A stretch of DNA of 36,448 nt, taken from contig WRGX01000216.1 in NCBI GenBank assembly GCA_009786975.1, positions 1 through 36,448 of the forward strand, given 5' to 3'. Numbering within the stretch: position 1 is the first letter of the stretch; every line of letters begins with the position of its first letter. This DNA comes from Defluviitaleaceae bacterium (GTDB taxonomy: Bacteria; Bacillota; Clostridia; Lachnospirales; WQUN01). The notes under the pieces were generated by a model. The model was not told the origin of the DNA and searched no databases. It saw nothing but the letters and a program-made list of their open reading frames with translations. The position numbers and the translations under genes are program-made. Below, piece after piece: positions 7,116 to 36,448 of this stretch.

Positions 7116-9384
7116 TTTTGCACTTATTTGCGTTGATATTTTGCACGGCGATGTTGACCGTTTATTTTTTTACAAAATTCCGGCGGGGCTTGAAATTTCC
7201 GTCGGTCAACGCGTGCGCGTGCCGTTTGGGTTGGGCGATTCGATTAAAATCGGCTATGTAATGGAAGTTACACAAACGCCGACGGATGATATCGCGCCGG
7301 AAAAAGTCAAAGAAATACACAGTCGGCTCGACGATTTTCCCGTTCTTACGCTGGAAACAATCGAGCTTGCGTTTTGGATGCAAAAAAAATATTACACAAC
7401 GCTTGCGGCGTGTGTACGCGCGATTGTTCCCGGCTCGAAAAGCGACGGGAAATTTCCTGTCGCGCGGAAAAAGCCGAAATTTTCGGAAATTACGCCGGTC
7501 GACATCACTTTGACCGACGAGCAAGAACACGCCGTTTCGCAAATTCTTCAAGCCGTTTCGGTTTCGGCTTCGGCTTCGGTTCCGCCTGACGGAGAACGCG
7601 GGACTGCCGACACAGATTCACGCTGTTTGACCTTTTCCTCGTCTGAAAAAGTATCAGAGCGCGCTCGACGCGCTATTTTACTGCATGGAGTAACGGGCAG
7701 CGGAAAAACCGAAGTTTACTTACACGCAATCGAAAAAATTTTGGCCGAGGGGCGGCAGGCAATCGTTCTTGTTCCCGAAATCGCGCTTACGCCGCAAATG
7801 GTCGCGCTTTTTTCCGCGCGATTCGGCAGTGCCGTCGCCGTAACGCACAGCCGCCTCACCCAAGCCGAACGCTTTCAAATTTGGAAAATGGCACTATCCT
7901 CCGAAATTTCGCTTGTAATCGGGCCGCGTTCCGCCGTTTTCGCGCCGTTTCCGCGCCTCGGACTCATCGTTATCGACGAGGAACACGAACATACCTACCA
8001 TTCCGAAACCGCCCCAAAATACGACGCCCGCGAAGTCGCCTTAAAACGCGCGGAAATTTGCGACGCCGCCGTTGTTTTGGGTTCGGCCACGCCAAGTCTT
8101 GAAAGCTATTTTAAGGCGCGGGAAAAATTGATGATGTTGGTGCCACTAACCGCAAGGATTAATAAAACCTTGCCGGAAATCCATATCGTTGACATGCGAA
8201 ACGAGATGCGGCGGGGGAATGCGTCGATTTTTTCGCAAAGTTTTTCGGACGCGCTTGCGGAAACTTTGGCGGCGGGTCGGCAGGCGATTTTATTTTTGAA
8301 TCGGAGGGGGCATTCGTCGTTTGTTAGCTGTCGGTGGTGCGGGCATGTTATGGGGTGCGAAAGTTGCAGGGTTAATCATACATATCATGCGGACAAAGGG
8401 CGGCTTTTGTGCCATTATTGCGGCAAGGGGACGGCGATGCCCGCGCGGTGTCCGATTTGCGAGTCCGAGCATATAAAGAAGTATGGGACGGGGACGCAGA
8501 AGGTCGAGGCGGAAATCACCGAGCTTTTCCCCGACGTGAAAGTCCTGCGCATGGACATGGACACCACGCGCGGCAAGCATGGTCACGCGAAAATTTTGGA
8601 CGCGTTTCGCGCGGGCGAGGCGCAGATTTTAATCGGCACACAAATGGTCGCTAAGGGGCTGGATTTTCCGAACGTTACGCTCGTTGGCGTAATCGCGGCG
8701 GATATGTCGCTTCATACCGGCGATTTTCGCGCAGGAGAGCATACGTTTCAAATTTTAACGCAGGTGGCGGGACGCGCGGGACGGCGCGCCAAGCGCGAAA
8801 TGGACGCCACGGGCGCAGTGAGCGAAGCGAACGTTTCCCGCGCCGCCAAGGGCGCAGTGAGTTCCCGCGCTACCGAGGACTCATGTGTGCAGTCCGGGCA
8901 TTCTATCGAAGCCGGAAGTGAAGCCGGAAGCCATGAAAAAAGATACCAAGGAAAAGTCTTCATCCAAACTTTTAATCCCGAGCATTACGCAATCGCCCTC
9001 GCCGAAAAAGGCGATTACGAAAAATTTTTTGCACATGAAATCGCGTTGCGCGAGGCTATGATTTATCCGCCGTTTTCGCATGTTTTTTCGGTAATGCTTA
9101 CCGGGACGCAGGAGCGCGAGGTTGTCGCGGCGTTGCAAACGCTTGCCGCAATTATGGAATATGTTGCAAAGCGCGACGGGAAGGAACGTTTTGAATTAAT
9201 GGGGCTTTCACCCGCTTTTGTTTCGATGATAAAGAAACAATTCCGTTGGAAACTTCTTGTAAAATCGCGCGAGGAAGCCACGCTCGTCGCATTTGTGTTA
9301 TATTGTATAAAAAAATTAAAGCAGAGCAATCCGCTTAAAAATATGACTTTGCACCTCACACTTAACCCTATAATGATGGAATAA
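7104..9384 (+). CDS. priA: Primosomal protein N' (PriA helicase), with in-frame repeat insertions
   Basis: LLHGVTGSGKTEVYLHAI, LVIDEEHEHTYHSE, zinc cluster CRWCGHVMGCESC...CHYCGKG...CPICES, LTQVAGRAGR; the segment RAKREMDATGAVSEANVSRAAKGAVSSRATEDSCVQSGHSIEAGSEAGSHEKR is repeat-derived. Confidence 0.95.
8783..8940 (-). repeat. Palindromic repeat copy inside priA, in frame
   Basis: ggcgcgccaagcgcg...gggcgcagtgagcgaagcgaacgtttcccgcgcc...ctatcgaagccggaag; same modules as the intergenic copies. Confidence 0.8.
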
Positions 9385-9535
9385 AATAATTCACGCGAGA
9401 GACAGCGGGCGAATGTGTCCGTTGCGAAAATCGGTAATCGTGTGACGAAAAAATGGAGTAAAATAATTCACGCGGAAGACAGCGGGCGAACGTGCCTGTT
9501 GCGAAAATCGGTAATCGTGTGACGAAAAAATGGAG
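9382..9535 (+). repeat. Tandem duplication, 77-bp period, between priA and def
   Basis: taaaataattcacgcg...gttgcgaaaatcggtaatcgtgtgacgaaaaaatggag occurs at 9382 and 9459 with few substitutions. Confidence 0.95.
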
Positions 9536-9543
9536 TGACATTG

Positions 9544-10095
9544 ATGGCCCTCAGGACGGTTCGCAGGGAAGGCGACGAGATTTTAAAAAAGAAATGCAAG
9601 CCGGTAAAAGACATAAACCCGGCAATTATTCAACTTTTGGACGACATGAAGCAAACGATTCGCGAGCTTGACGCCGTTGGCGTTGCCGCACCGCAAATCG
9701 GGATGCTTAAGCGTGTCGTTGTTGTTGAATTCGAGGATGAATTATACGAAATGATAAATCCGGAAATAATTGAGTCGGAGGGCGACCAAAAATGTAACGA
9801 AGCGTGCTTGTCGGTTCCGGGGCGTTGTGGCGACGTTGTGCGGCCGTTTAACGCCAAAATTAAGGCGACGAATCGCGAGGGCGCGGAATATATAATCGAA
9901 GCCGACGATTTTTTATCCTCGATAATGTGCCACGAACTTGACCACCTCGACGGCGTGCTTTTTATTGACAAAGCGACGAATATTCAAATGATTAACGAGG
10001 AGCAAATGCGGGCGCGGAAACGCGCGCGGAAGAAGCGAATACAGGAGCGAAAATTGAAGCGGCAGGGGGTTTACGCAGGAGGACGGCGGCGGTGA
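9544..10095 (+). CDS. def: Peptide deformylase
   Basis: GVAAPQIGMLKRVVVVE, EACLSVPG, MCHELDHLDGVLFIDK. Confidence 0.96.
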   Translation: MALRTVRREGDEILKKKCKPVKDINPAIIQLLDDMKQTIRELDAVGVAAPQIGMLKRVVVVEFEDELYEMINPEIIESEGDQKCNEACLSVPGRCGDVVRPFNAKIKATNREGAEYIIEADDFLSSIMCHELDHLDGVLFIDKATNIQMINEEQMRARKRARKKRIQERKLKRQGVYAGGRRR

Positions 10096-11057
10096 AAATT
10101 ATTTTTATGGGGACGCCGACATTTGCGGCGGAGTCGCTTGACGCGATTTTGAAATCGTCGCACGAAGTTGTCGCGGTTTGCACGCAACCCGACAGACCCG
10201 CAGGGCGCGGGCATAAACTTACGGCAAGCCCGGTGAAGGAGCTTGCGGCGGCGCATGGTTTGCCGATTTTTCAGCCGGAAACCCTGCGATTTTCCGACGA
10301 GAACGCGAAAAAAGTCCGCGAGGAACTCGAGGAGTTCGGCGCGGATATTTTTGTTGTCGCGGCGTATGGCTTACTGCTTCCGAAGGGCGTCTTGACTATG
10401 CCGCCGCTGGGTTGCGTGAATGTTCACGCCTCATTGCTCCCAAAATATCGCGGTGCGTCGCCGATTCACGCGGCGATTTTAAACGGCGACGCGGCGACGG
10501 GGATTACCATAATCCACATGGACGCGGGGCTTGATACCGGTGATATGATTTTGCAAAAACGGCTTGAAATCGGGGCGGACGAGCGGTTTGCGGAACTGCA
10601 TGACCGCATGGCTGTTTTGGGCGCGGAGGCGATTTGCGAGGCGTTGGCGCAGCTTGAAAACGGAACGGCGGCACGGGTTGTGCAGGACAACGCGCTCGCA
10701 AGCCACGCGCCGAAACTGCAAAAATCTGACGGACGGATTGATTGGTCGGATTCAAGCGAGAAAATTTTTAATCAGGTGCGCGCGCTTGCGTGTTTTACGC
10801 AACGGGACGGGCAGGTCATTAAAATTTGGGATGTTGAAAAATCGACCGATGACAGTTTTCGGGAGCAGTTTCCCGGCGTATCAAAAAAATTTTCTCCCGG
10901 AGAAATTATTTCAGCAGAAAAAGGCCTGCTCGTTAAAACCGGCGACGGTGCGATTCGCATAACCGAGCTTCAAGCCGTTGGCAAAAAAAGAATGCCTGCG
11001 TCGGATTTTTTGCGCGGGCAGAGGGTTGGTGTGTCGGACAGGTTTAGATGGGTTTGA
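10092..11057 (+). CDS. fmt: Methionyl-tRNA formyltransferase
   Basis: MKIIFMGTPTFAAESLDAIL, VCTQPDRPAGRGHKLTASPVKELA, GCVNVHASLLPKYRGASPIHAAILNGDAATGITIIHMDAGLDTGDMI. Confidence 0.96.
   Translation: MKIIFMGTPTFAAESLDAILKSSHEVVAVCTQPDRPAGRGHKLTASPVKELAAAHGLPIFQPETLRFSDENAKKVREELEEFGADIFVVAAYGLLLPKGVLTMPPLGCVNVHASLLPKYRGASPIHAAILNGDAATGITIIHMDAGLDTGDMILQKRLEIGADERFAELHDRMAVLGAEAICEALAQLENGTAARVVQDNALASHAPKLQKSDGRIDWSDSSEKIFNQVRALACFTQRDGQVIKIWDVEKSTDDSFREQFPGVSKKFSPGEIISAEKGLLVKTGDGAIRITELQAVGKKRMPASDFLRGQRVGVSDRFRWV
10859..10890 (-). repeat. Partial palindromic repeat (M1 half) in frame inside fmt
   Basis: cgggagcagtttcccggcgtatcaaaaaaa is identical in core to intergenic gggagcagtttcccggcgta. 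Confidence 0.65.
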
Positions 11058-11144
11058 TATACAAAAATCAAACAGAAATAAAGGAAATGCTGGTAAGTGA
11101 AAGACAGGCATCAGTACGCACAGTCTAGGGCAAGTGACGCACTG

Positions 11145-11205
11145 CACCGGGTACACATGTCGGTGGCGACGCGTTCCCGCGAAGCCGGAAGAAGTTTACT
11201 CGCCC
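11145..11205 (-). repeat. Palindromic repeat M1 copy
   Basis: accgggtacacatgtcggtggcgacgcgttcccgcgaagccggaagaagttt. Confidence 0.8.
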
Positions 11206-11208
11206 ATA

Positions 11209-11247
11209 AAAATCGAGTCGGCGAGTGTCACTCGCCGACTCGATTTT
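11209..11247. terminator. M4 palindromic hairpin
   Basis: aaaatcgagtcggcgagtgtcactcgccgactcgatttt, perfect 39-nt palindrome. Confidence 0.9.
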
Positions 11248-11269
11248 GAAAAAAAATTTTTTTAAAAAA

Positions 11270-11351
11270 GCGCGCCAAGCGCGCATTGGGCACCGGGGGC
11301 ATATGTCGCGGGCGACGCATTCCCTCGAAGCCGGGAGCAATTTCCTTGCCC
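11270..11351 (-). repeat. Palindromic repeat M2+M1 copy
   Basis: gcgcgccaagcgcgcattgggcaccgggggcatatgtcgcgggcgacgcattccctcgaagccgggagcaatttccttgcc. Confidence 0.9.
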
Positions 11352-11352
11352 A

Positions 11353-11380
11353 TAAAAAAAACGCGCATACGCGCGTTTTT
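11353..11380. terminator. Bidirectional intrinsic terminator between fmt and PBP1A
   Basis: aaaaaaaa cgcgc atac gcgcg ttttt. Confidence 0.8.
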
Positions 11381-11394
11381 ACAGTTTTCAAAAA

Positions 11395-14300: not shown

Positions 14301-14439
14301 CCGCGCCCGCGCCCGCAAACACAGCAATCATCAGCAGCGACAGCGCAACACGCAAAAAAAGCAAGCCGAATTTGTTCCGAACACGCATGGTATGCGGTTC
14401 GCGCTTGCGCTTTTTATTTCCCGGTTGTGAGTAGTCCAT
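11395..14439 (-). CDS. Penicillin-binding protein 1A-type bifunctional transglycosylase/transpeptidase
   Basis: GT51 motifs AIEDERFFEHNGIDPRGIARA, QGASTITQQL-like EGASTITQQLIKNM; TP motifs STRSPGSQMKPL and AGKTGTSQN. Confidence 0.95.
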   Translation of the reverse strand: MDYSQPGNKKRKREPHTMRVRNKFGLLFLRVALSLLMIAVFAGAGAGIGVYIGILEGAPDLDFSSLGPVSPRAIDPHMTGGSIQDGMELSSHIVCARTGEVRETLHRGMNREFVRIDEMPRHLIYAFIAIEDERFFEHNGIDPRGIARAVWVATQPGRQTEGASTITQQLIKNMLEIDNDIITKLQEQHLAVNFERELTEAFERYGYEDPHMEAKYFIMQSYLNMINLGRSNYGVQAAAQFYFGLDVSELSIAQSAVIAAITQNPSRFPPDTRPHDNWRRAQLVLYNMYERNGLITTEEYEEAIAARQVIDPYTFEPMYDEDGEPIMLGLVYDTIYRTAAGDIRDIIARFDCYTSALLAQVRVDMIERLGITGAEADRRIFETGITINSVQDMHLQEIVDRAFLDESLWPNVGFSIEVRYSMTVYNTITQLRRREDFPPHSVANLEEVDAFIERLHEQHLTHADEIVEYRLFKVPQPQGAFVLIDHHTGHVVAIRGVRGESLGNRALNRATQSTRSPGSQMKPLVPFAPLFELGMMQPSTVIDDIPFYLPNPGGRGWQPRNHWDGGRVFRGLTTARNAIYASGNVVSARAGADPTVVPGPAGVTTMIRYLELMGVSTLHPHDGAAIVLGGMTRGMYLIELAGAYATIANGGEFNRPVLYTTVLDHEGNILLENYHNPQRVLRDTTAYLLTSTMQDTMTRAGATGGRANWTAASGLRGQMGLAGKTGTSQNNADLGFTGYTPYFTAAIWLGNDNNQPMARGTNQFHTPLWRTIMEEIHMDLSPAMFTRPPGIVSAAVCLDSGHLPSELCRIDPRGDRVRNEIFAPGMVPSQTCNVHQRHTYCSVHGRLAGPGCNREYPYGTVVTRVGLVRPWSVDHLEGTIRDRHMHFPGDVLRGIVCNCGGVNVGDLWQNPMIFDPELGMFVQGPGAGAPTSPDGNVVHNVEIPGIPDGFPSPQTTPPPGPFIEPFTPLLPTPTPAPIPTLPPWQGLGTPGGEASGADDTPSPFVHTVPIPGLD

Positions 14440-14581
14440 GAAATTTTTTCTCCTTGAATTGGCGAGCAATTGGTGAGCGTTAACAGAATTTTAACATACT
14501 TTTTGGCAAACTACAATACGGACGGATGGGGGGAATTCCACGCGGAATTCCACGCCAAAAAAAGGTGAATTGAAATTGTAA

Positions 14582-14762
14582 AAAATCGAGTCGGCGAGTG
14601 ACACTCGCCGACTCGATTTTTTTTGCGCAGTTTTATGGCAAAAAAAGCGCGCACTGCGCGCACCACGGGCGCAGTGCGCGAAGCGAACGTTTCCTGCGCC
14701 ACTGTAGACAAGTGCCGGAGGCGACACATTCCCTCGAAGCCGGGAACAGTTGCCCGGCGTAT
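14582..14762 (-). repeat. Composite repeat: M4 + linker + M2 + M3 + M1
   Basis: M4 palindrome 14582-14620, gcgcagttttatggcaaaaaaa linker, gcgcgcactgcgcgc 14647-14661, gggcgcagtgcgcgaagcgaacgtttcc, then cattccctcgaagccgggaacagttgcccgg. Confidence 0.85.
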
Positions 14763-14767
14763 AAAAA

Positions 14768-14800
14768 AATGATGATGTTAGTGCCACTAACATCATCATT
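14768..14800. terminator. M5 perfect palindrome hairpin
   Basis: aatgatgatgttagtg c cactaacatcatcatt (16-bp arms, 1-nt centre) with flanking A/T tracts. Confidence 0.8.
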
Positions 14801-14910
14801 TCGCATGGGGTACACAAATCAAGGTGGGTGCATCGGGTTTCCAACCGCCACCACGAGGCATCTGCGCCCCTTGTTCGCCTTCATTCGCCTTCATTCGCCT
14901 TCAATGGTTC

Positions 14911-15014
14911 ATACTTTTTCCGCTCAAAAAATTGGAATTCGCCCCTCCGTCACACGTCCGCTTTTCACTTGTTTCGTAAGGGCGAATTTCAATTTTTGAG
15001 AGTGGAAAAAGTAT
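14911..15014. repeat. Long inverted repeat (foldback structure) 3' of the small minus-strand gene
   Basis: atactttttccgctcaaaaaattggaattcgccc (14911-14944) vs gggcgaatttcaatttttgagagtggaaaaagtat (14980-15014). Confidence 0.85.
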
Positions 15015-15023
15015 CATTCGCTT

Positions 15024-15449
15024 TTAGCGGCTGTCCATCCAGTCGTCCGCCATTTCAAGAAGCGTAATCGGCGTAACAGTTCCCGCCGCGAACGCGCGAG
15101 CCATAGCAAAAATCACGTCGCGGTCGTCGGTTATGCCGTGCGTTTCTTCGCTTTCTTGAGGGTCAGGAAACTGCTCCCGGCTTCGAGGGAATGCGTCGCC
15201 GCCGACACATGTTCCCGGTGTCCAATGCGCGCCTGGCGCGCTTTCTTGAGGCATCCCGTCGGGCGCGCGGGATGCGTTGGCTTCGCTCGCGTCCGACGGG
15301 GTGCGTTTTTCGACGCGCAGGGCGTAGTATTCATCCCCGTCGTCGTTTAAGTAAGTTTGTACGATGTAGCTTAAAATCCACGTTTCTCCGGTTTCGGTGC
15401 TGATTTTTTCGTTCGAAACCATCTCATTTTTTTGCGCATTCGCAACCAT
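15024..15449 (-). CDS. Small conserved-looking protein (possibly DUF6514-type) carrying an in-frame repeat insertion
   Basis: ETGETWILSYIVQTYLNDDGDEYYALRVEK...ITDDRDVIFAMARAFAAGTVTPITLLEMADDWMD flanks repeat-derived ESAPGAHWTPGTCVGGDAFPRSREQFPDPQES. Confidence 0.6.
   Translation of the reverse strand: MVANAQKNEMVSNEKISTETGETWILSYIVQTYLNDDGDEYYALRVEKRTPSDASEANASRAPDGMPQESAPGAHWTPGTCVGGDAFPRSREQFPDPQESEETHGITDDRDVIFAMARAFAAGTVTPITLLEMADDWMDSR
15164..15302 (+). repeat. Palindromic repeat M1+M2+M3 inside the 15024-15449 CDS
   Basis: aggaaactgctcccggcttcgagggaatgcgtcgccgccgacacatgttcccggtgtccaatgcgcgcctggcgcgctttcttg, then M3-like gttggcttcgctcgcgtccgac. Confidence 0.9.
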
Positions 15450-15566
15450 TTATCCCGTCCCCTTTTCTGCTCATCTGTACACAATTAGTCTACATCAAGG
15501 GCTCGGAGGTTGCCATCCACAATTAGTAACATTTGCCAAATTTCGAGGATATTTTTTACAATTTTT

Positions 15567-17303
15567 TCAAATTTTTTTCAGAGCGTCGGCTTGGCTTTTC
15601 ATCTCGCTTGCGGATTGGAGCGTTGCCGATGTAATGGCGGCGCCGCCTGTTAATCGGGCGAGTTCGCGGATTGTACCGTCGGTGCAAAGGGGGGCAACGC
15701 TTGTGATTGTGCGGCCCGTTCGCTCGGCTTTTTCGATTAGGAAGTGCGTGTCCGCCATTGCAGCGATTTGTGGCAAATGTGTGATACATAAAATTTGTCG
15801 CGTGCGTGAAACCGCCGCCAGTTTTTCTGCTACTTGTTGCGCCGTTCTGCCCGACACGCCTGTGTCAACCTCGTCGAAAATTACGGTGGGCACGCGGTCC
15901 GACATTATCGTTTTTATAGCGAGCATGATGCGCGACATTTCGCCGCCGCTGGCGATTTTTCGCAGGGGTTTGGCGGGTTCGCCCGGGTTCGGCGAAATCA
16001 TAAACTCGATTTCGTCGTTGCCGTCAGCCGCGAACACGGTTTTTTGCTTGATTTGAATAAAAAGCTCCGCGTGTTGCATTCCGAGGTCGCGTAAAATTTC
16101 GGTGATTTCGGCGGAAAGTCGGGCGGCGTGGGCGGTGCGAATCGCGTTCATTGTTGCGCAAACCGCTGTTATTTCCGCGGAAATTTCCTTGCGACGCGCG
16201 CGGATTTTTCGCGCTTCGACTTCGGCGTTCTCAACGCTGTCCAGCTTTTGCGCCAAATCGTCTCGCTTCATTAGAATAGTCTCGACCGTTGCGCCGTATT
16301 TTTTTTTCAGCCTGTAAATCGTGTCGAGGCGCGTTTCCATTGCGTCGAGGGCGTGCGGGTCGGCGTCGAGTTCGCCTTCATAATCGCGAAAATCTCGCCC
16401 GATTTCGCGGATTACTGCGTTTACGTCAACCAAAGCGGTATGTAAATGTTCCTTCGACGGGTCAATCCGCGCGATTTCCGCGGCAAGCGCGACTGCTTTC
16501 GCGGTGGCGTCGGCGGCGGGCATACTCGGGCGTCCCTCAAAAAACCCCGCATAAAGCAGGGCCACAATGTCCGACGTGTTCCGACTCAAACGCTCGAGCC
16601 CCGCAAGCCTGTCCCGCTTTGCCGTAAGCGCGTCCTCTTCTCCCGGCTTCAGCGCGGCGGCTTCGATTTCGTTTAGCTGGAACCGCCAAATTTCAAGCTG
16701 TTCCGCGCTTGTTCCCGCTTCGATTTTTTTAAGCTCGCGCGTGGCCTCTTTATAGCGCGACAAATGTCCCGCGAGGGCGGTTTTCATCTCCGCCAGTTCA
16801 TCTCCGCAGAAATAATCCAGCATTTCAAGCTGTTTCGCCGGGTCGAGAAGGCTTTGATGCTCGTGTTGGCCGTGCAATTCAACAAGCAACTCCGCCGCGC
16901 TTTTTAACACGCCGACGGTAACGGTGCGGCCATTTATACGGCAAGTTGACTTGCCTGTGTCAGCCTGCATCGCGCGCGAAAGCATGAGTTGCCCGCCGTC
17001 GAGTTCTATCCCCAACGCAATAAGCCCCTGTTTTAAAGCAGCGGAAGCAGAATCCGGCTTCGAGAGCACGCGAGGCACCCGACACATGTTATCGGTGTCA
17101 AAAATACCTTCGACGCTGGCGGAGGGTGCGCCTGTGCGGATTAGGTCGCGGGAGGTTCGTCCGCCGAGCAAAAAATTTATGGAGTCAACAACAATGGATT
17201 TTCCCGCGCCGGTTTCGCCCGAAAGCACGTTAAGCCCGGGCGCGAACGCTACTTCGACCTCGTCGATAAGCGCGACGTTTTTTATACGTAAATTCACTAT
17301 CAT
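15567..17303 (-). CDS. recN: DNA repair protein RecN
   Basis: MIVNLRIKNVALIDEVEVAFAPGLNVLSGETGAGKSIVVDSINFLLGGR; IASGGEMSRIMLAIKTIM; IFDEVDTGVSGRTAQ. ATGA overlap with the argR stop. Confidence 0.96.
   Translation of the reverse strand: MIVNLRIKNVALIDEVEVAFAPGLNVLSGETGAGKSIVVDSINFLLGGRTSRDLIRTGAPSASVEGIFDTDNMCRVPRVLSKPDSASAALKQGLIALGIELDGGQLMLSRAMQADTGKSTCRINGRTVTVGVLKSAAELLVELHGQHEHQSLLDPAKQLEMLDYFCGDELAEMKTALAGHLSRYKEATRELKKIEAGTSAEQLEIWRFQLNEIEAAALKPGEEDALTAKRDRLAGLERLSRNTSDIVALLYAGFFEGRPSMPAADATAKAVALAAEIARIDPSKEHLHTALVDVNAVIREIGRDFRDYEGELDADPHALDAMETRLDTIYRLKKKYGATVETILMKRDDLAQKLDSVENAEVEARKIRARRKEISAEITAVCATMNAIRTAHAARLSAEITEILRDLGMQHAELFIQIKQKTVFAADGNDEIEFMISPNPGEPAKPLRKIASGGEMSRIMLAIKTIMSDRVPTVIFDEVDTGVSGRTAQQVAEKLAAVSRTRQILCITHLPQIAAMADTHFLIEKAERTGRTITSVAPLCTDGTIRELARLTGGAAITSATLQSASEMKSQADALKKI
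17041..17100 (+). repeat. Degenerate palindromic repeat M1 in frame inside recN
   Basis: aatccggcttcgagagcacgcgaggcacccgacacatgttatcggtgtca; translates MCRVPRVLSKPDSASA, like MCQGRHIPSKPGAVS encoded by intergenic copies. Confidence 0.75.
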
Positions 17304-17958: not shown

Positions 17959-18888
17959 TCATAATTGCCGAAACCCATTAGTGTCCCCATCCCCCGTGCG
18001 AATATAATGAAACAAAAACTGTTGCGCGATGCCGGAAAAATTTTTTATTTCCGGAGGGAAGCCCTTGGGGAACCAGCGCGACATTGCGCGGCGAATCCAA
18101 ACGTCGGCGGGATAGCGTTCGACGCGACCGAATCCGTAAAGCAAAACACATTCCGCAACCTTCGGCCCGACGCCGCGAATTTTTTGCAAAACTTCGCACA
18201 GCTCGTCGGATGAAAAATTTTCACACGCGTGCAAGTCGATTTCGCCGCTTGCCACGCGCCTCGCCGCGTCCAGTACATATCCCGCGCGATAGCCCAAGCG
18301 CAGGGGCGCAAGGTCGACTTCGCTCAACCCGGCAAGTTTTTCGGGCGTGGGAAAATCGAAATAGTGCATGGCTTCGAGAGAACGCTCCGCCACGTGTCCG
18401 CAGTTTCCACCGTGCGCTTGGCGCACCCCGAAATTTTCGCACAATGCCTCCACCATTTTTTTTATGCGCGGAATATTTGCGTTTTGGCTCAAAATAAACG
18501 AAACCAACGTTTCCCACGAATTTTGGCGCAAAAGCCGCAAACCCGGCGAAAATTCCACCGCATTTTTCAGATGCTCGCTGCACTCCGAAAAAAGCGCGCG
18601 TAAATTTCCGTAATCCCGCTCGATGTCAAAGTAATTTTTCCATATTTTTTCAAACTCATCCTCCGAAACATCATGCAAAATCACTTCGCCGTTTGCGCGC
18701 GAAATTTCCAGCCGCCGCCCCTGCGCAATGCCGACAAAGAGTTCTCGGTTTTGAGCGCACGCGTCGCCACTTGCCCCCGGTTTCCACAGTGCGCTTGGCG
18801 CACACCAGCGAAACGCCTGCCCACAGTCAAGCGTTTGCGCAAGGTCAAAATCGATGCCCTTTAATATGTAATTCACACTTTTCACCAT
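17959..18888 (-). CDS. 8-oxoguanine DNA glycosylase (OGG/AlkA HhH-GPD) with two in-frame repeat insertions
   Basis: IDFDLAQTLDCGQAFRW, FILSQNANIPRIKKMVEALCENFG, YRAGYVLDAAR, LQKIRGVGPKVAECVLLYGFGRVERYPADVWIRRAM; may extend in frame to 18951/18960. Confidence 0.92.
   Translation of the reverse strand: MVKSVNYILKGIDFDLAQTLDCGQAFRWCAPSALWKPGASGDACAQNRELFVGIAQGRRLEISRANGEVILHDVSEDEFEKIWKNYFDIERDYGNLRALFSECSEHLKNAVEFSPGLRLLRQNSWETLVSFILSQNANIPRIKKMVEALCENFGVRQAHGGNCGHVAERSLEAMHYFDFPTPEKLAGLSEVDLAPLRLGYRAGYVLDAARRVASGEIDLHACENFSSDELCEVLQKIRGVGPKVAECVLLYGFGRVERYPADVWIRRAMSRWFPKGFPPEIKNFSGIAQQFLFHYIRTGDGDTNGFRQL
18370..18425 (+). repeat. Degenerate palindromic repeat in frame inside the glycosylase (copy 2)
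   Basis: gcttcgagagaacgctccgccacgtgtccgcagtttccaccgtgcgcttggcgca. Confidence 0.75.
18738..18802 (+). repeat. Degenerate palindromic repeat in frame inside the glycosylase (copy 1)
   Basis: gcgcacgcgtcgccacttgcccccggtttccacagtgcgcttggcgca; translates APSALWKPGAS, cf. APSAHWTPGTC in prmC. Confidence 0.75.
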
Positions 18889-18951
18889 TCGCTGAACGCA
18901 CAAATCGCCATTAAAAATCGGACGCCCGCGTTCCTCTTGTTCATTTTTCAC
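18879..18951 (-). promoter_or_regulatory. KNxxxERGR leader element fused in frame to the glycosylase start
   Basis: VKNEQEERGRPIFNGDLCVQRMVKSVN; nucleotide alignment with the yicC and cellulase leaders. Confidence 0.6.
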
Positions 18952-18994
18952 ACTTCTCACCCCTTGCATTTTATCACAAACAGCAAGAAAAAAA

Positions 18995-19168
18995 GCGCGC
19001 CAAGCGCGCAGTGGACACCGGGGAAATATGTCTGCGGCGACGCGTTCCCTCGAAGCCGGAAGCAGTTTCCCGGCGTATGAAAAAGCGCGCCAAGCGCGCA
19101 GTGGACACCGGGGAAATATGTCTGCGGCGACGCGTTCCCTCGAAGCCGGAAGCAGTTTCCCGGCGTAT
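18995..19168 (-). repeat. Two near-identical tandem palindromic repeats (90-bp period)
   Basis: gcgcgccaagcgcgcagtggacaccggggaaatatgtctgcggcgacgcgttccctcgaagccggaagcagtttcccggcgtatga at 18995 and 19085. Confidence 0.95.
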
Positions 19169-19171
19169 GAA

Positions 19172-19210
19172 AAAATCGAGTCGGCGAGTGTCACTCGCCG
19201 ACTCGATTTT
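19172..19210. terminator. M4 palindromic hairpin
   Basis: aaaatcgagtcggcgagtgtcactcgccgactcgatttt. Confidence 0.9.
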
Positions 19211-19235
19211 TTTGGCGCAGCTTTATGGCAAAAAA

Positions 19236-19318
19236 GCGCGCCAAGCGCGCAGTGGACATCGGGGACACGTGTCGGCGGCGGCGCGTTCCCTCGAAGCCGG
19301 GAGCAGTTTCCCGGCGTA
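19236..19318 (-). repeat. Palindromic repeat M2+M1 copy
   Basis: gcgcgccaagcgcgcagtggacatcggggacacgtgtcggcggcggcgcgttccctcgaagccgggagcagtttcccggcgtag. Confidence 0.95.
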
Positions 19319-19327
19319 GTGCAAAAA

Positions 19328-19386: not shown

Positions 19387-21339
19387 CTACGGCGCAACCA
19401 AATCAAACGTAACTTCAATAGAGTGAATCCGCACCCCCGCATAATTCGCAAGCAACCGCGGGTTTGCGTTCGCATCTTCATCTTGGAAAACGCGCGCTCC
19501 CGCAGGAATGCCCGCAACCCAGCCATTGTACAAATTCACACGGGTTGTATTTCCGTCGTCGCTTGTCGTGAATGGAACGCCGATTTGCTCGGCTTCGTTG
19601 CCGTTTACCAAAATGGATGTGATGTTTACATAATATCCCGGAAACAGCGACTCGCCGTTGAAAATCCCAAGCGCGGAGAAGGTAATTCCATTCGCGCCGC
19701 CACCGGGTACGCCTCCGAAGTTCAGTCCAACGGTGTAAGTCCCTTCGCCCGTAATTTCAACGTCGGCAGCGACAACGCCGCTTGTTATGCTTTCCGGCCG
19801 ATAATCGTCGCCAACGCTGTATTGCACCGACCAATCCGTGCTTGTGAACATAATCCACGCAACCGCCATGTCGTCGGGAATTATCGTAACGGGGCGATTA
19901 CGCGCCATTTCCATCGTATTTTCCATGCTTTCGCGCGCTGCCGCAATTATATCGGCGGTAGTCAGGCCTTCGCGGGCTTCGACGCTTCGGCTTTGGAAAA
20001 GCTCCAAAATATCCGGCTCGGTAAGGGTTCGCGTGAAACGCCTGTCGAACATTCCGCCGGCTCCCCTGTCCCATAAAATCGGCGAAAAACCGTGATAATC
20101 GCTTAAATCCAAGAAATTCGTAAAAAATTTCAGCCTGTCGGGCCCCTCGTTATCCAAGACGCCCCATTCGCCCAAAACTATGCCGTAACCCTGCTCGGTG
20201 AAAAAAGTCAAACGGCCCAGCAAATCATTCATTTCCTCGACTTCCGTTACTGTCCCCCAGTGGTCCACGCCGGAAACGTCGCCCGTAAAACTCCACGGGG
20301 TGTAGTAATGAACGCTTAGTAAAATTCGGCCGCGCGGGTCTGTGGGCAGCTCAAAGCGCGGGTCCAGGGTCATCATAACGTCGGTGTTATAGCCCTTCAT
20401 CAGCAAAAAACGGTCGGGATTGTACCCGCCCTGCGAACGAATCAGGTCAACAAAAACTTGGGACAAATATGTGAGAAGCTGATAATTTTCCGTTACGGAG
20501 AAAATTCCGCCGGGACTGAAAGCGGTTGCGTCGTTAAAACGACTGCCCCATTCCTCGTTGGACGGCTCCAAAATAAGGCGCATGTCGTAATCGGCAAAAT
20601 GCTCGCCGATTTGCGTCCACATCGCAACGAACATTTCATGCGCAAAATCTCGCCGTTCCTCCTCGGGATGCCCGAACATGCTCCACCATCCGTGGTCCCA
20701 ATGCGCGTTAATAATAACGAACATGTCCTCGTTCAAAGCGTAATTTACGATTTGTTCAACGCGCTCGAGGTAGTCGATGCCTATTGTAAGGTCGCCGTTT
20801 TCGAAGTCCATCGCGTTTGTCCACGCAACGGGAATTCGCAGGGTGTTAAAGCCCGCGTCGCGCATTCCCGTAATCATTTCCTGCGTCGTAACGGGGTTGC
20901 CCCACATTGTTTCGTAAACGGAAGTGTGTTGATTCGGCACACGATTCGCGGAATTCACCGCTTCCATCGTATTGCCCAAATTTATTCCGTTGCCCAAAAG
21001 CCGCGCCATCTCAAGAGATGTTACATACGCGAGACTTTCGCAAGGCGGCGGCTGAACCCGCTCGCTATCCTGCGTGCCGCCCGAATCGGCTGTCGGCGTC
21101 GCGTCATTCGAAGCATTATTCGAAGCATTATTCGAAGCACCGGTCGCAACGCCATCCGCAACATCGGTCGCAACATCATTCGAAGCGTCATCCCCTGCGC
21201 CCTCCGGACTTTCCTCCGGCGCATCTTCAAAAACGGGCGAGGCCGGGTACTCATACCCGGCCTCATCCGTCCCGCCGCAAGCGGCAAAAAACAACATCCC
21301 CACAGCGGCAAAAATTAAAATTTCAAAATATTTTCTCAT
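19387..21339 (-). CDS. Lipoprotein GH5-type cellulase/endoglucanase with C-terminal beta-sandwich-like module
   Basis: Lipobox FFAACGG; LGNGINLGNTMEA; FNTLRIPVAWTN; LILEPSNEEWG (acid/base); GIVLGEWGVLDN (nucleophile). Confidence 0.88.
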   Translation of the reverse strand: MRKYFEILIFAAVGMLFFAACGGTDEAGYEYPASPVFEDAPEESPEGAGDDASNDVATDVADGVATGASNNASNNASNDATPTADSGGTQDSERVQPPPCESLAYVTSLEMARLLGNGINLGNTMEAVNSANRVPNQHTSVYETMWGNPVTTQEMITGMRDAGFNTLRIPVAWTNAMDFENGDLTIGIDYLERVEQIVNYALNEDMFVIINAHWDHGWWSMFGHPEEERRDFAHEMFVAMWTQIGEHFADYDMRLILEPSNEEWGSRFNDATAFSPGGIFSVTENYQLLTYLSQVFVDLIRSQGGYNPDRFLLMKGYNTDVMMTLDPRFELPTDPRGRILLSVHYYTPWSFTGDVSGVDHWGTVTEVEEMNDLLGRLTFFTEQGYGIVLGEWGVLDNEGPDRLKFFTNFLDLSDYHGFSPILWDRGAGGMFDRRFTRTLTEPDILELFQSRSVEAREGLTTADIIAAARESMENTMEMARNRPVTIIPDDMAVAWIMFTSTDWSVQYSVGDDYRPESITSGVVAADVEITGEGTYTVGLNFGGVPGGGANGITFSALGIFNGESLFPGYYVNITSILVNGNEAEQIGVPFTTSDDGNTTRVNLYNGWVAGIPAGARVFQDEDANANPRLLANYAGVRIHSIEVTFDLVAP

Positions 21340-21487
21340 TTTTTCGTCATTCGCTGAACGTACAAATTTCTAATGGAATTCGTCGCCCGCGTTCCTTTTT
21401 TCGATTTTTAACCCTTTTTCGTCATTCGCTGAACGCACAAATTCCTGATGAAATTCGTCGCCCGCGTTCCTTTCGCCGATTTTTCAC
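21338..21487 (-). promoter_or_regulatory. Tandem pair of KNxxxERGR leader elements upstream of the cellulase start codon
   Basis: Copies MKNRRKERGRRISSGICAFSE* (21487-21422) and (V)KNRKKERGRRIPLEICTFSE* (21412-21347); ggaacgcgggcgacgaatt...tttgtRcgttcagcgaatgacgaaaaa in both. Confidence 0.7.
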
Positions 21488-30665: not shown

Positions 30666-30692
30666 GCCAATGCCCCTTTTTTTAGAAATTTG

Positions 30693-30760
30693 CATCCGGC
30701 TTCGAGAGAATGTGACGCATGTGACACATTCCCTCGGTACCCATCGCGCGCTTGGCGCGC
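30693..30760 (+). repeat. Palindromic repeat copy abutting a permease stop codon, inside the operon
   Basis: atccggcttcgagagaatgtgacgcatgtgacacattccctcggtacccatcgcgcgcttggcgcgc; stop TAG (cta 30760-30762) shares one base with the hairpin. Confidence 0.9.
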
Positions 30761-31701
30761 TAGTCTTTCATTCCGGACGTTGTAAGCGTTTCAATCATTT
30801 GGCTTTGCGCGATTATGAAAAACGTAACGGGTATTATCATCATTAAGAACATTACGGCCGCGCTTTCACCGGCGCGGGCGATGCCGCCGCCCGCGATTTG
30901 ACCCATCGCGAAGGAAAGCGGTTTAAGCTCCTCGCTTCGTATAAATATGCCGCCGGTTGTCGCCCATAATCCTTGAAATTGCAGGATAATAAGCGTAAGC
31001 CACGCGGGCTTTACGTTCGGCATTACGATTGACCAATAAATTCTGTACTCCGACGCACCGTCGATTCGCGCGGATTCAACCAGCGAGTCGGGAATTTGCT
31101 CCATGAATTGCTTCATTAAATACAACCCAAGCGGCGCGGAAAACGCGGGCAAAATAATCGCCCAATACGTGTCAATCAGCCCCAGCGATGAAATTATTAT
31201 AAAGTTCGGAATCGACGTTACAACGGCGGCAAACATTAGGGAAAGCACCACCATTGAAAACATCATTTTTCTGCCGGGCAATTCCACTTTAGCAAGCGCG
31301 TACGCCGCCGAAGACGCAAACATTAAATGCCCAAGCGTTCCGCCCAAGGTAATTATAAGCGTATTAACGGCGTAACGCGAAAAAGGCACCCACGTCGCCT
31401 GCATCGATACGAACAAGTCCGAAAAATTGCTTAGGGTCGGATTTCGTACGACGATTTGCGGCGGGAAAAGGAACAGCTCATCCAGCGGTTTTAACGCGTT
31501 ACTTACTGTCAAAAACAGCGGGAAGCCCATGAATACGGCAAGGAGCCCCATGAAAATAAACAGCACAACGGTTCCGCCCGTTGAGCGGTTTAGCCGCTTC
31601 GTGCGCTTGGCAAGTTTGCCGATTTTTTTTCCATGCTCGTCATAAATATATTGCGGCTTGGGAAATTTTTTTCTGAAAGAAGTCTTTAATGCGGCAACCA
31701 T
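30760..31701 (-). CDS. Carbohydrate ABC transporter permease (MalG-like)
   Basis: VESARIDGASEYRIYWSIVMPNVKPAWLTL EAA loop; SRYAVNTLIITLGGTLGHLMFASSAAYALAK. Confidence 0.9.
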   Translation of the reverse strand: MVAALKTSFRKKFPKPQYIYDEHGKKIGKLAKRTKRLNRSTGGTVVLFIFMGLLAVFMGFPLFLTVSNALKPLDELFLFPPQIVVRNPTLSNFSDLFVSMQATWVPFSRYAVNTLIITLGGTLGHLMFASSAAYALAKVELPGRKMMFSMVVLSLMFAAVVTSIPNFIIISSLGLIDTYWAIILPAFSAPLGLYLMKQFMEQIPDSLVESARIDGASEYRIYWSIVMPNVKPAWLTLIILQFQGLWATTGGIFIRSEELKPLSFAMGQIAGGGIARAGESAAVMFLMMIIPVTFFIIAQSQMIETLTTSGMKD

Positions 31702-31702
31702 T

Positions 31703-32626
31703 CTATGTTCCCACCCTTCGCAAAAGATGCTGAACCGTCTTGTTCGTGGTTATCATCATAATGAACAAAATCGTGGCGATTGCCGAAGCGAATCCCATTT
31801 CGAAGCGTATCCAGCCAAAGTCCATCATGTGTGTGACGATGGTTTCGCCGGCGTAGTTTACGCTGGGAAGCCCCGCGAGAGTCGTTGAAATTTCCGCAAC
31901 GTTGAAGGACGTCGTGATTTGCATAACCGCACCGAACATTAACTGCGGCTTCATGGACGGAAGCGTGATAAACCAAAGTTCCTGCCAGCGGTTTTGAATC
32001 CCGTCAACCGCGGCGGCTTCGTACATTGATTTATCCACGGTTTGAAGGCCCGCGATAAACGCCAAAAAGCCCACGCCCAGCGAAAGCCATAATTGCACCA
32101 GCAGAAGGAGCGGCAAAATATAATCGGGGTCGCGGAAGAAGTTTATCGGGTCGGTTTCAAGCCCCCAGCGCAACAAAAATCCGTTCACCAAGCCATAGCG
32201 GTCGCCCGATAAAAAGAAGCCCCATATGAAAAATACATTGCCCGAAATCGACGGCGCGTAAAAAATTACCGTCATTACGGCGCGAAGTTTGGGCCTCATT
32301 TCATTTATAATCCACGCGAGACCAAAACACAGGACATACGAAAGCGGACCCGTTACAACCGCAAAAATAAGCGTGTTTTGCAGGGCAATCATAAATACTT
32401 CGTTTTCCAAAAACAAACGAATGTAGTTTTCCCAGCCGACAAACTGCGGCGGCTGCAGCATATTAAAGCTGGTAAAACTGAGCGCGATTGCCATAAGAAC
32501 CGGCAGTACCGTAAACGCGAAAAACAGAATGAAATACGGCGCAAGAAGCGTATAGCCTTGCCTTGTGCGTTTCATTCGAACCCAAGTGGACGCTTTGCGC
32601 GGTTTTGTATTATTCAAGTTTAACAC
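31703..32626 (-). CDS. Carbohydrate ABC transporter permease (MalF-like)
   Basis: GYTLLAPYFILFFAFTVLPVLMAIALSFTSFN; YEAAAVDGIQNRWQELWFITLPSMKPQL. Confidence 0.9.
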   Translation of the reverse strand: MLNLNNTKPRKASTWVRMKRTRQGYTLLAPYFILFFAFTVLPVLMAIALSFTSFNMLQPPQFVGWENYIRLFLENEVFMIALQNTLIFAVVTGPLSYVLCFGLAWIINEMRPKLRAVMTVIFYAPSISGNVFFIWGFFLSGDRYGLVNGFLLRWGLETDPINFFRDPDYILPLLLLVQLWLSLGVGFLAFIAGLQTVDKSMYEAAAVDGIQNRWQELWFITLPSMKPQLMFGAVMQITTSFNVAEISTTLAGLPSVNYAGETIVTHMMDFGWIRFEMGFASAIATILFIMMITTNKTVQHLLRRVGT

Positions 32627-32641
32627 CCCTTTTTGCCATTG

Positions 32642-35572
32642 TTATTCTATCCCAAATTCCCGACGTTTTGCGCGCAGTTCGTCGTTTATGCGGCGCGTTG
32701 CGTCGGTTAAGGCGTCGCGGGGGCTCATGTTTACGCTGTCAAGCTCCACCACGGTGAAAAACGCATTACGCACTTGACGCGGCGTGAAATATCCGCCCGG
32801 TACCTCGGGAATGCCTCTTACATGTTCAAATTGCGCAAGAAGTTGCCTGTAGTCTTGAACGGGCCACGGCATTTGGCCAAAGGCCTCGAGATTCGCGGTT
32901 GGGTGACGCGCCGCCGAACCCATCAGGGATTCCATTTCGCGACCGAAGCGCGTTTGCGTTTCCGCAGAGGTCCACCACTTCATAAATTCCCAAGCGGCAT
33001 CGGGGTCGCTTACTTCATCAAGCATCATTACGCCGGAACCTCCGGCGGCAACGGCGCGATTTATCGAGTCGTCGGGCTGAACCGTTCCGGGGACGGGCCT
33101 AAAGCCCCACAGGCCCCGAATTTCCGGCGCGAAAACGTGAAGCATATTATAGAAGGAATAGTCCACAATCGCCAGCGGCATTTCGCCTTGACGGAAGCGG
33201 TTGGGGAAGTCAAATTCTCTGTCGAGGTCGTATTCCGTGAAAAAGCGGGTGAATTCGCGAAAGGCGTTAAGGGCGACGCCGCTGTCTAAGGTCGAAAGGG
33301 AGCCGTCTTCATTATAGAATTCTCCGCCGGCTTGATACAGGAACATCGCAAAAGCCCCGAGGGGCTGGTCCCCAACCAAAATTCCGAAGTCCATGTGATT
33401 TATCGCCAAGGTTTCGATGGCGATACTTACTTCGGCCCATGTCTCCGGCGGCTCGAGGTCGATTTCATTCAAAATATCCCTGCGGTAAAACAGCATCGGG
33501 AACGTTATCGTTTCGGGCAGGGCGTAAACAGCTCCGCCAAAGGAGTACGGAACCATTGCTGCCGGCGGGAAACGTTGCGTCACTTCTTCAAAGTCCGCAA
33601 AAGTCGTGAGGTCGCGAATCGCGCCGCGCACACCAAAGTCCATCGGCACATTGTTGCCCACGGTCAGCGCGACGTCGGGGCCCTGCCCCGTTACGGTCGC
33701 GGGCAGAAGCGTTCCCATATCCACAAGCATCAGCGTGACGTCGATGCCCGTATGCGGGGTAAATGTTTCGTCAATCATATTGCGAATAATATTCGCTTGG
33801 TCGCGACCCGTGCCGACCCATACTTCTATGCCGACTCCTGCGCCTATCGTGTTGTAATCTATAATGAAGGACCAAATCAGCGAAAGGATTTCGTGCCAAA
33901 TTTGACGCCACCATCTCGACCCGTTGTCCGGTTCGGGCGCGTCGTGGGGGAGGATATAAATTGCGTCAACGGAAAGCATTTGTTCGCGCACGATTATTAG
34001 CCATGTGCCGAGGGAGCCGACGCCTTGTCTGTATTGCGACAAACGATTCGGCACTTCTTCGACGTCGTTGTACAGAATTGCCAAAACCGTCGAAAGGTTG
34101 CGAATCATAGAGTCTCTGTCGCCGCGCCCGACTGCCATTTCCGAAAGGCCTTCGAACACGCGGTCCAGCCTTTCGCGTTCGTCGCGCAGGGCTTGCTCGA
34201 GGTGCGGCAGGCGGCGGCCGATTTGGTAATCACGGGCGGATTCGGGAGCGGTTCCCGTTATCATTACGATTTGGCGATACAACGAGTTTAAGTGAAGCAT
34301 GGATTCTTGAATTTCGCGGACGTATTCGGCATATCCGCCCAGCACCGCCTCCATACGAATTGTATGCGTTCCGGCGGGCAGCCAAAACATGAAGGGGTTG
34401 TCGTTATTATCGCTTAAAGTGTCCACTCGCCAGCCGTTATCGAACCCGAAGGCGATGGCTTCCATTTCGGAGAAGGGAACTTCGCCGTTTATCGAGATGC
34501 GGCGGAAGGAATTCGCGCCTCTGTGGTAGTGTTGGCGTACGTTTAGGGCGATATTGTACAGCCCGTCCGTCGGGACTTCGAAGTCCCATTCAATCCATGC
34601 GCCCGGCTCGGACCACGCGCTTCCGCCGATTGAGTTTACGCGTATGTAACGCGCGCTGTAGGGGTAGACGCCGGGGCCGGAATTATCGGCTTGCGGCGCG
34701 AGAAGCGGCGAAGATTTGCGGGCCGCGTCCTGCCCTTCGATGCGAATTACTTCGACTTGCGAGACGCTTGGGCGCGCAAGCGCGGCTTGGGCGGCGGAAA
34801 CTTCCGCGTAGGGACGCACCTCCGGTGCTTGATGCACGCGAATTTGACGAATCACCATCGGTTCGCGCTGTGAAAAGAAACCGATTGTGTTTCGCCCTGC
34901 CTGAAAGTAAAATGAAAGCGGCTCGTTAAACGAGCCCATATTGTCGCGAATTAAAGCCTCGTTCCATGAATGTTCTTCCACTTGAACGGGGCGACGGTCG
35001 TTGCCTTGCTCGTCGCGTTGGATATAGTCCAGTTGGTTTACCCAGATGCGCGGGAGTTCGACGGGATTCGCCTCTATGAAGGGCTTTTCGCCGTTGATAA
35101 CAACAGCGCGTTGGATGCCCGAACTTCTTCCCGCGACGGTGTAGTACAGCACGGAAATATTGTAAAGTCCGGCTTCGGACACGTAGAAATCCCATTCGAT
35201 TAAGCCTGTTTCGTCCGTCCAAACCGACGTGCCGGGCATATCCTCAAAATTTTCGCCGTCGAAGTTTTCAAAATAATACATATCCATACCCGCGACAACG
35301 GAAAAATCTCCCGCTTCTATTATATACTCGGCGTCGGGACGCGGGGTGGCTCGGTGAGTTTCCCTGAATTCCTCAAAACTGTCGTGGACTCCGAAGGCGT
35401 TTAGCATGGCGAGGTGGTATTGCATTATTTCGGCTTCGGTTTGGGCTTCCGGTCGGGCTTCGGTTTCCGCTCGGACTTCGGTCGGCGCGATTGGGGCTAT
35501 GCCCGAAAACACAAAAGTAAATGCTAAAAAAAAGCACAACAATTTTCGTGCGCTTATCTTCATTTTCATCAT
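32642..35572 (-). CDS. Large solute-binding protein with two N-terminal CBM-like modules
   Basis: Sec signal; duplicated module (IEWDFYVSEAGLYNISVLYY...VVINGEKPF and IEWDFEVPTDGLYNIALNVRQ...ISINGEVPF); C-terminal SBP region VAAGGSGVMMLDEVSDPDAAWEFMKWWTSAETQTRFGREMESLMG. Confidence 0.85.
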   Translation of the reverse strand: MMKMKISARKLLCFFLAFTFVFSGIAPIAPTEVRAETEARPEAQTEAEIMQYHLAMLNAFGVHDSFEEFRETHRATPRPDAEYIIEAGDFSVVAGMDMYYFENFDGENFEDMPGTSVWTDETGLIEWDFYVSEAGLYNISVLYYTVAGRSSGIQRAVVINGEKPFIEANPVELPRIWVNQLDYIQRDEQGNDRRPVQVEEHSWNEALIRDNMGSFNEPLSFYFQAGRNTIGFFSQREPMVIRQIRVHQAPEVRPYAEVSAAQAALARPSVSQVEVIRIEGQDAARKSSPLLAPQADNSGPGVYPYSARYIRVNSIGGSAWSEPGAWIEWDFEVPTDGLYNIALNVRQHYHRGANSFRRISINGEVPFSEMEAIAFGFDNGWRVDTLSDNNDNPFMFWLPAGTHTIRMEAVLGGYAEYVREIQESMLHLNSLYRQIVMITGTAPESARDYQIGRRLPHLEQALRDERERLDRVFEGLSEMAVGRGDRDSMIRNLSTVLAILYNDVEEVPNRLSQYRQGVGSLGTWLIIVREQMLSVDAIYILPHDAPEPDNGSRWWRQIWHEILSLIWSFIIDYNTIGAGVGIEVWVGTGRDQANIIRNMIDETFTPHTGIDVTLMLVDMGTLLPATVTGQGPDVALTVGNNVPMDFGVRGAIRDLTTFADFEEVTQRFPPAAMVPYSFGGAVYALPETITFPMLFYRRDILNEIDLEPPETWAEVSIAIETLAINHMDFGILVGDQPLGAFAMFLYQAGGEFYNEDGSLSTLDSGVALNAFREFTRFFTEYDLDREFDFPNRFRQGEMPLAIVDYSFYNMLHVFAPEIRGLWGFRPVPGTVQPDDSINRAVAAGGSGVMMLDEVSDPDAAWEFMKWWTSAETQTRFGREMESLMGSAARHPTANLEAFGQMPWPVQDYRQLLAQFEHVRGIPEVPGGYFTPRQVRNAFFTVVELDSVNMSPRDALTDATRRINDELRAKRREFGIE

Positions 35573-35680
35573 CCTTTCCCCACGTGTTCCCCATCTTAAT
35601 ATGAAACATATAAAAATACAAGATTATTTATGTTTTTTTTATATTGAATCAATAGAAGCAATTTGCGTCGATTTGCGGAG

Positions 35681-36448
35681 TCAATTTGCGGAACAATCCG
35701 AAACACCGCGCACAATCCGCGGCAGACCTGCGTAATCGCTTGAAATTTCTACATCGCTGAAGCCCTCGTCGCGCAGTAAATCCGCAACTTCGACCGGTCC
35801 GATTTCGAAAAACAACGCCCCGCCTTCGCGCAGGGCATTTTTTGCTTGGGGGATTAAACGGCGATAGAGGTCGAGTCCGTCGGGGCCGCCGTTTAGGGCG
35901 AGATGTGGCTCGTGGTCGCGGACGGAGGGGGATAGGGTTTGCATTTCGGCGGCGGTGATGTATGGCGGGTTTGAGATGATTATGTCGAATTTTTCGTCGG
36001 CGGAAGGCATGTTCGGCTTCGAAGGCATGTGTCTTTTTTGTGGGCCGGGAAATTGCTTCCGGCTTCGAGGGAATGTGCCGACTTCGACACATGTCCCCGG
36101 TGTCCAGTGCGCGCTTGGCGCGCTTTTTTGAAAAATGTTATCGCTTATGAGGTCGGATTCGATAAATTTCACGCGCGCGGAAAGCCCCAGTTTTTCCGCA
36201 TTTTTTTTCGCAAGCGCGAGGGCGTCGGGGGAAATGTCGGTTGCGGTGATTTCGGCGCGGTCGCCCAAAACATGCGCAAGTGCGAGGGCGATACAGCCGC
36301 TTCCGGTGCAAACGTCGAGTATGCGCAGGGGTGTGTTTTTTTGTGCGTGAAAATCGAGTCGGCGAGTGTGACTCGCCGACTCGATTTTATTTTTGGCAGG
36401 GAAACTGCTTCCGGCTTCGAGGGAACGCGGCGATTCCGACACATGTCC
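35681..36448 (-). CDS. prmC: Peptide chain release factor N5-glutamine methyltransferase (3' part; continues past window) with in-frame repeat insertions
   Basis: LRILDVCTGSGCIALALAHVLG...FDIIISNPPYITAAEMQTLSPSVRDHEPHLALNGGPDGLDLYRRLI is the PrmC/HemK signature. Confidence 0.92.
   Translation of the reverse strand, partial: GHVSESPRSLEAGSSFPAKNKIESASHTRRLDFHAQKNTPLRILDVCTGSGCIALALAHVLGDRAEITATDISPDALALAKKNAEKLGLSARVKFIESDLISDNIFQKSAPSAHWTPGTCVEVGTFPRSRKQFPGPQKRHMPSKPNMPSADEKFDIIISNPPYITAAEMQTLSPSVRDHEPHLALNGGPDGLDLYRRLIPQAKNALREGGALFFEIGPVEVADLLRDEGFSDVEISSDYAGLPRIVRGVSDCSAN
36044..36128 (+). repeat. Palindromic repeat M1+M2 in frame inside prmC
   Basis: ccgggaaattgcttccggcttcgagggaatgtgccgacttcgacacatgtccccggtgtccagtgcgcgcttggcgcgctttttt; translates SAPSAHWTPGTCVEVGTFPRSRKQFPGPQK. 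Confidence 0.95.
36350..36388. repeat. M4 palindromic hairpin in frame inside prmC
   Basis: aaaatcgagtcggcgagtgtgactcgccgactcgatttt; translates KIESASHTRRLDF. Confidence 0.9.
36396..36448 (+). repeat. Palindromic repeat M1 copy in frame inside prmC (runs off window)
   Basis: cagggaaactgcttccggcttcgagggaacgcggcgattccgacacatgtcc; translates HVSESPRSLEAGSSFPAKNK. Confidence 0.9.

Follow-up and report, generated by a model that had tools for sequence, protein, structure and literature searches.

The window analysed here, a stretch of 36,448 nt, carries the genes priA, fmt, recN, ogg and prmC together with a gene of the DUF6514 family, and copies of three repeat families, designated R1, R2 and R3, are scattered between and within its genes. 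It is contig C216 of a MAG, G000, which comprises 2.21 Mb in 219 contigs. Its nearest named relatives are Defluviitaleaceae MAGs (class Clostridia). By name only, their isolates resemble those in termite-gut MAG studies, which would make the termite gut its habitat. The R1 profile was seeded on the intergenic repeat of the window, refined and searched with nhmmer, and matches of at least 20 bits were counted as copies. In shuffled DNA (100 dinucleotide-shuffled windows, 3.6 Mb) matches reached at most 13.4 bits with the initial profile and 11.8 bits with the refined one. Copy numbers for G000 refer to 670 kb out of the 2.21 Mb (about 30% of the genome) and those for its congener G003 to 610 kb of sequence; in both cases ORFs were called with a simple home-made hexamer gene finder.

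R1 is about 94 nt long and showed three consecutive hairpins with a T-run at each end, arranged as T-run, hairpin 1 (CCGGGAAACTGCTTCCGG), hairpin 2 (around GAGGGAATGCGTCG...CGACACGTGTCCCC), hairpin 3 (GCGCGCTTGGCGCGC) and T-run. Hairpin 3 and the final T-run constitute an intrinsic terminator on one strand. This is the only well-kept hairpin, being 97-99% paired; covariation was looked for in the pairing of hairpins 1 and 2 and none was found. The folding energy of R1 lies about 5 standard deviations below that of shuffled sequences on both strands. The consensus can be read without a stop in each of its three sense frames, and in five of the six frames overall. That this openness is an adapted trait was considered and rejected, since mononucleotide shuffles reach at least five open frames in 6.6% of cases and the result is thus not significant. 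A long form of the element has one more hairpin module, placed ahead of the terminator. An Rfam search of the window returned no family.

The intergenic copies of the window include two long forms, at 1929-2061 (+ strand; nhmmer 71 and 17.5 bits) and at 14673-14768 (- strand; 63.9 bits), and a further copy at 30684-30761 (+; 64 bits). Tandem copies of R1 have a period of 90 nt; an array of 3.3 units of 91 nt occupies 2786-3085 (+; TRF 98% matches, nhmmer 90-93 bits each). After fmt, two copies (52.6 and 91.1 bits) flank an R3 palindrome at 11138-11359 (-), and three copies identified by TRF and profile lie at 18991-19320 (-), two of them in 90-nt tandem and one beyond an R3 palindrome. R3, some 40 nt long, is perfectly palindromic and flanked by T-runs, and from its sequence would terminate transcription in both directions. 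It occurs at 92 sites per 670 kb, often abutting R1, and in the window at 3090-3130, 11211-11252, 14580-14626, 19170-19215 and 36348-36392. Beside R1 copies at 14769-14790 and L089:14300-14340 lies a further short palindromic repeat, TGATGATGTTAGTGCCACT with its complement, and a similar peptide, MMLVPLT, occurs inside PriA. Two other repeats of the window are a 16-nt tandem repeat, ATCGAATGATATTTTA, of about 4 units at a gene junction (5577-5656), and two 77-nt tandem units, 92% alike, at 9376-9529, the first of which lies at the priA stop codon; no further copies of the latter were found in the 670 kb.

An earlier note on this DNA had proposed that a repeat of about 90 bp lies in frame inside housekeeping ORFs, and the profile confirmed it in priA, the DUF6514-family gene at 15.2 kb, recN, ogg (twice) and prmC (twice), the scores within the window ranging from 28 to 90 bits. 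As the note had also stated, the hosts between them use all three frames; this is true of either orientation of the repeat. The priA gene (7114-9384, +; PDB PriA E=1e-107) contains a long-form R1 at 8784-8940 (-, antisense; profile match 8844-8940), which directly follows VAGRAGR and corresponds to residues ~559-610. In eight congeners GRAGR runs almost directly into G[KR]VFIQT, G000 having about 51 extra residues, and Klebsiella PriA (PDB) is contiguous at this site as well. PriA has another in-frame insert, absent from the earlier note, of about 33 residues (~151-183; 7564-7662, -), which is weakly R1-like (15.1 bits at 7571-7676) and is also missing from the eight congeners. The DUF6514-family gene (15027-15449, -; Pfam PF20124) harbours R1 at 15152-15244 (+, antisense; 86.6 bits), and its G003 ortholog lacks the insert. 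In recN (15570-17303, -) mainly the hairpin 2 part of R1 is present (17031-17102, +, antisense; 44 bits), and eight congeners lack the inserted residues. By profile and ortholog comparison ogg (17962-18969, -) contains two copies, at 18352-18426 (residues ~187-201) and 18731-18803 (residues ~56-80), both on the + strand and antisense; seven congener orthologs are without them. A full R1 (36034-36127, +, antisense; 90.5 bits) lies in frame in prmC (35684-36448, -) just before NPPYI, and the corresponding residues 101-148 are absent from nine congeners and from HemK structures. These ortholog alignments had been set beforehand as a test of the proposal.

The second prmC copy (36387-36448; 48.8 bits) forms, together with R3, the stretch 36348-36448 (+) in the interdomain linker. 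The contig end, which falls within this copy, truncates the gene, and a search of the rest of the assembly did not recover the N-terminal domain of PrmC. Other contigs also break within R1 copies; a repeat was found in the first 120 nt of 10 of the 33 sampled stretches. The proposed copy in fmt is the one case that stood only in part. The match, a fragment of hairpin 1 at 10860-10887 (-, antisense), is marginal, 28 nt with a noise-level score of 13.5 bits, although the fmt loop is longer in G000 than in congeners and the peptide REQFPG is shared.

The note had expected the inserts to occupy loops. Two proteins were modelled with AlphaFold, and both models match the expected PDB folds. The PriA model (74 sequences) had a mean pLDDT of 88 and fell below 50 only at residues 163-178 and 562-606, i.e. 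at both inserts. In the OGG model (8 sequences) pLDDT was below 50 at the inserts (59-73 and 187-200) and also at residues 1-30, an N-terminal extension read from an R2 copy (18876-18955, +; R2 profile), and at the C-terminal tail (328-336). The models thus agree with the expectation: in both proteins the inserts are predicted to be disordered loops amid confident folds.

G000 contained 241 copies of R1 per 670 kb, 44 of them well inside genes; in G003 the figure was 46 of 90. According to Pfam, the hosts in G000 include, besides priA, recN, ogg and prmC, the genes for RecG, PurH, MurJ, a pyrimidine phosphorylase, an M24 aminopeptidase, a PilB-type ATPase, NAD kinase, a DinG-like helicase and a U32 peptidase; those in G003 encode UvrC, DHFR, AroA, ThiI, TsaD and a radical-SAM enzyme. 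Frame was also examined by a test blind to ORF status, in which sites were kept where both flanks match one subject ORF. Among the 17 sites obtained, 13 are truly intragenic, and all 13 are in frame and free of stop codons (p = 6e-7 against an expectation of 1/3). Four apparent frameshifted insertions were discarded after inspection, since they sit between adjacent genes.

The repeat itself proved taxon-specific. Within the genus two species besides G000 carry R1, G003 and G009; in the remaining congeners and in 28 more members of the family it was absent by profile, save for weak matches in G002 and G005. Searches of plasmid, phage and IMG/VR collections gave no match. Carriers and non-carriers belong to one genus, and clean empty sites are therefore available. 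At the best intergenic one, G009 has flanks 85-88% identical to those in G000 and the insertion is a clean ~62 nt, with no target duplication obvious. Neither did the other empty sites examined show a clear target-site duplication, and the ends of the R1 consensus have no terminal inverted repeats. No Y1/REP transposase (PF01797) was found in G000, G003 or G009 (genomes 71-94% complete), no reverse transcriptase in G000 or G003, and no split R1 copies around a transposase ORF in the 1.28 Mb sampled.

It might be asked why the in-gene copies are so unevenly oriented: in G000, 34 are antisense and 10 sense to the host gene (p = 4e-4). Counted by gene, which is safer because tandem copies are not independent, the ratio is 40 to 13 over two genomes (p = 3e-4). 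The bias is not due to stop codons, since the consensus has none in its three sense frames. It is the terminator which accounts for it. Among 174 intergenic copies, hairpin and T-run are kept on the element strand in 83 and on the other strand in one. None of the nine sense copies in real genes keeps the terminator, compared with the 83 of 174 between genes (p = 0.004); the one sense in-gene copy that does so lies in an ORF of 108 aa, probably no gene. R3 is nearly excluded from genes (3 of 91, versus 42 of 239 for R1; p = 5e-4). R2, a second repeat family of about 65-75 nt with 40 copies per 670 kb (in the window also at 21331-21480), has a single usable frame, encoding QREERGRPIFNGDLCVQRMAK; wherever it overlaps a gene (17 of 17 cases) it is antisense.

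Of 24 tandem spacings inside genes, 21 are divisible by three, compared with 31 of 55 outside. G003 possesses in-frame arrays of an R1-derived unit, mostly of 57 nt, at L105:3077-3916, L114:5708-7240, L113:5035-7398, L219:6275-8485 and L225:2704-4110. Their hosts are the genes for DHFR, AroA, UvrC, a radical-SAM enzyme and ThiI. In the DHFR, five units of 19 residues separate the halves of the fold, where the loop in solved DHFR comprises 8 residues. The pN/pS between in-gene tandem units was 0.81 (13 pairs, no confidence interval), so that the differences look near-neutral. The inserts read as tolerated passengers rather than selected parts, though the numbers are small.

The most convincing explanation, and very probably the correct one, is that R1 is a short selfish repeat, and that selection, acting on frame, transcription and loop position, decides which copies persist in genes. 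R1 would be a high-copy, probably non-autonomous element that spreads through the genome by insertion; its intrinsic terminator works in one direction, and stop codons are scarce in all its frames. A copy in a gene would survive only if it adds a whole number of codons free of stops, if the host transcript corresponds to the strand without the terminator or no terminator is left, and if the added peptide falls in a tolerant loop or linker. The peptide, presumably translated and retained in the mature protein, would give its host an additional loop, disordered and nearly neutral, and the inserted unit may then amplify in tandem, again mostly by whole codons. Selfishness, a term of the earlier note, and mobility are what we infer from this pattern. 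Against this reading speak the failure to find a mobilising enzyme in the carrier genomes searched, the lack of terminal inverted repeats and of a clear target-site duplication, and the absence of covariation in hairpins 1 and 2.

It could be argued that no insertion took place and that ancestral loops were expanded or converted locally into repeat-like sequence. Tandem growth within genes is real in G003, and some in-gene matches, those in recN and NAD kinase, are partial and replace a few host residues. However, up to about 90 nt are common to in-gene copies and distant intergenic ones, the priA copy spans the terminator hairpin through to the T-run, and the loops of congeners are short and without such sequence. 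Ancestry of the peptide segments had been named beforehand as an alternative, and the orthologs do not carry them; local expansion is very improbable. The idea that short-read contigs were misjoined through the repeat can hardly be entertained, even if many contigs begin or finish in repeats and the upstream prmC copy lies at such an end. Chimeric assembly is unlikely because both unique flanks match one ortholog in frame, in 13 of 13 cases, and an independent MAG shows the same pattern with diverged copies at other sites.

A role for the in-gene copies, for instance as ribosome-pausing mRNA hairpins at loops and linkers or as interaction-surface peptides, would be another reason for their retention. 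The PrmC linker, OGG loop and fmt loop that bear inserts in G000 do so in G003 as well, with different inserts of its own (a further one lies in another PriA loop), and such independent insertion in the same loop of two species speaks for function, as does the fact that the repeat folds far better than shuffled sequence. On the other hand, the closest relatives do without the inserts, pN/pS between tandem units is near 0.8, hairpins 1 and 2 lack covariation, and identity to the consensus is lower in genes (0.78) than outside (0.85). Nor is there a common peptide, because all frames are used. We consider retention for function improbable and prefer the filtered selfish repeat. Going beyond it, R1 might represent a new class of short elements which spread without a known transposase, are suited to carriage inside proteins by their open frames and one-strand terminator, and amplify in tandem in essential enzymes, thereby serving as a continuing genome-wide source of new loops in gut Clostridia; this broader view is tentative and less likely than not.

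In-frame selfish repeats in housekeeping proteins have so far been treated as a quirk of Rickettsia, Wolbachia and one archaeon. The case from the Bacillota is independent and larger, and it displays the filters of selection, i.e. frame, terminator strand and loop position. The neutrality of the inserts becomes directly testable on enzymes that are simple to assay (DHFR, AroA, OGG, PrmC). The case is also a warning, since gene callers and fold predictors will encounter such inserts in termite-gut MAGs. The literature searched, from which most subscription papers were missing, contained no earlier description of such a family in Clostridia.

The Rickettsia palindromic elements (RPE; Ogata 2000, 2002) are, according to PMC10969869, PMC3767692 and PMC2229807, repeats of 100-150 nt located in frame in conserved genes, and an RPE-bearing guanylate kinase is reported to be translated and active (PMC2229807). 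Like RPE, R1 has many copies both between genes and in frame in conserved ones, leaves the host ORF intact and the gene apparently functional, and adds loops in segments that are unstructured in the PriA and OGG models. In one defining feature R1 departs from them: an RPE forms a single long stem-loop bounded by terminal inverted repeats (PMC2229807), whereas R1, of about 90 nt, has three hairpins. The comparison drawn in the earlier note therefore holds for behaviour and not for the word palindromic, and R1 may be called RPE-like in this sense, whether or not it is an RPE by descent. R1 further differs from RPE in its intrinsic terminator with the orientation filter, its use of all frames, its in-gene tandem amplification and its host, a clostridial gut bacterium with a genome of 2-3 Mb.

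Wolbachia palindromic elements (Ogata 2005) resemble R1 in that WPE-like inserts in addA, addB and priA (PMC4224334) are in frame and without premature stops, even priA being shared, in an unrelated lineage. The coding palindromic repeats of Methanocaldococcus jannaschii (Suyama 2005, cited in PMC2996958) are likewise in frame in assorted genes outside the Rickettsiales, their host being an archaeon; both comparisons are by description. The ERIC/RU of enterobacteria (PMC2759123) are intergenic repeats whose open frames are sometimes fused in frame to genes, but at 24 annotated loci that are mostly not large conserved families, whereas R1 occupies tens of conserved enzymes in a single genome. 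SPRITE and REP/BIME (PMC10969869, PMC3733652) are high-copy terminator-like or hairpin repeats as well, but mainly intergenic. Unlike the REP elements mobilised by RAYT, R1 is without a Y1 transposase in what is assembled of its three carrier genomes. Classical MITE have terminal inverted repeats and a target-site duplication; R1 has no inverted ends, and the empty sites inspected gave no clear sign of a duplication. New in the present analysis are the antisense bias of in-gene copies, the loss of the terminator in sense copies and the whole-codon tandem growth in a sister species.
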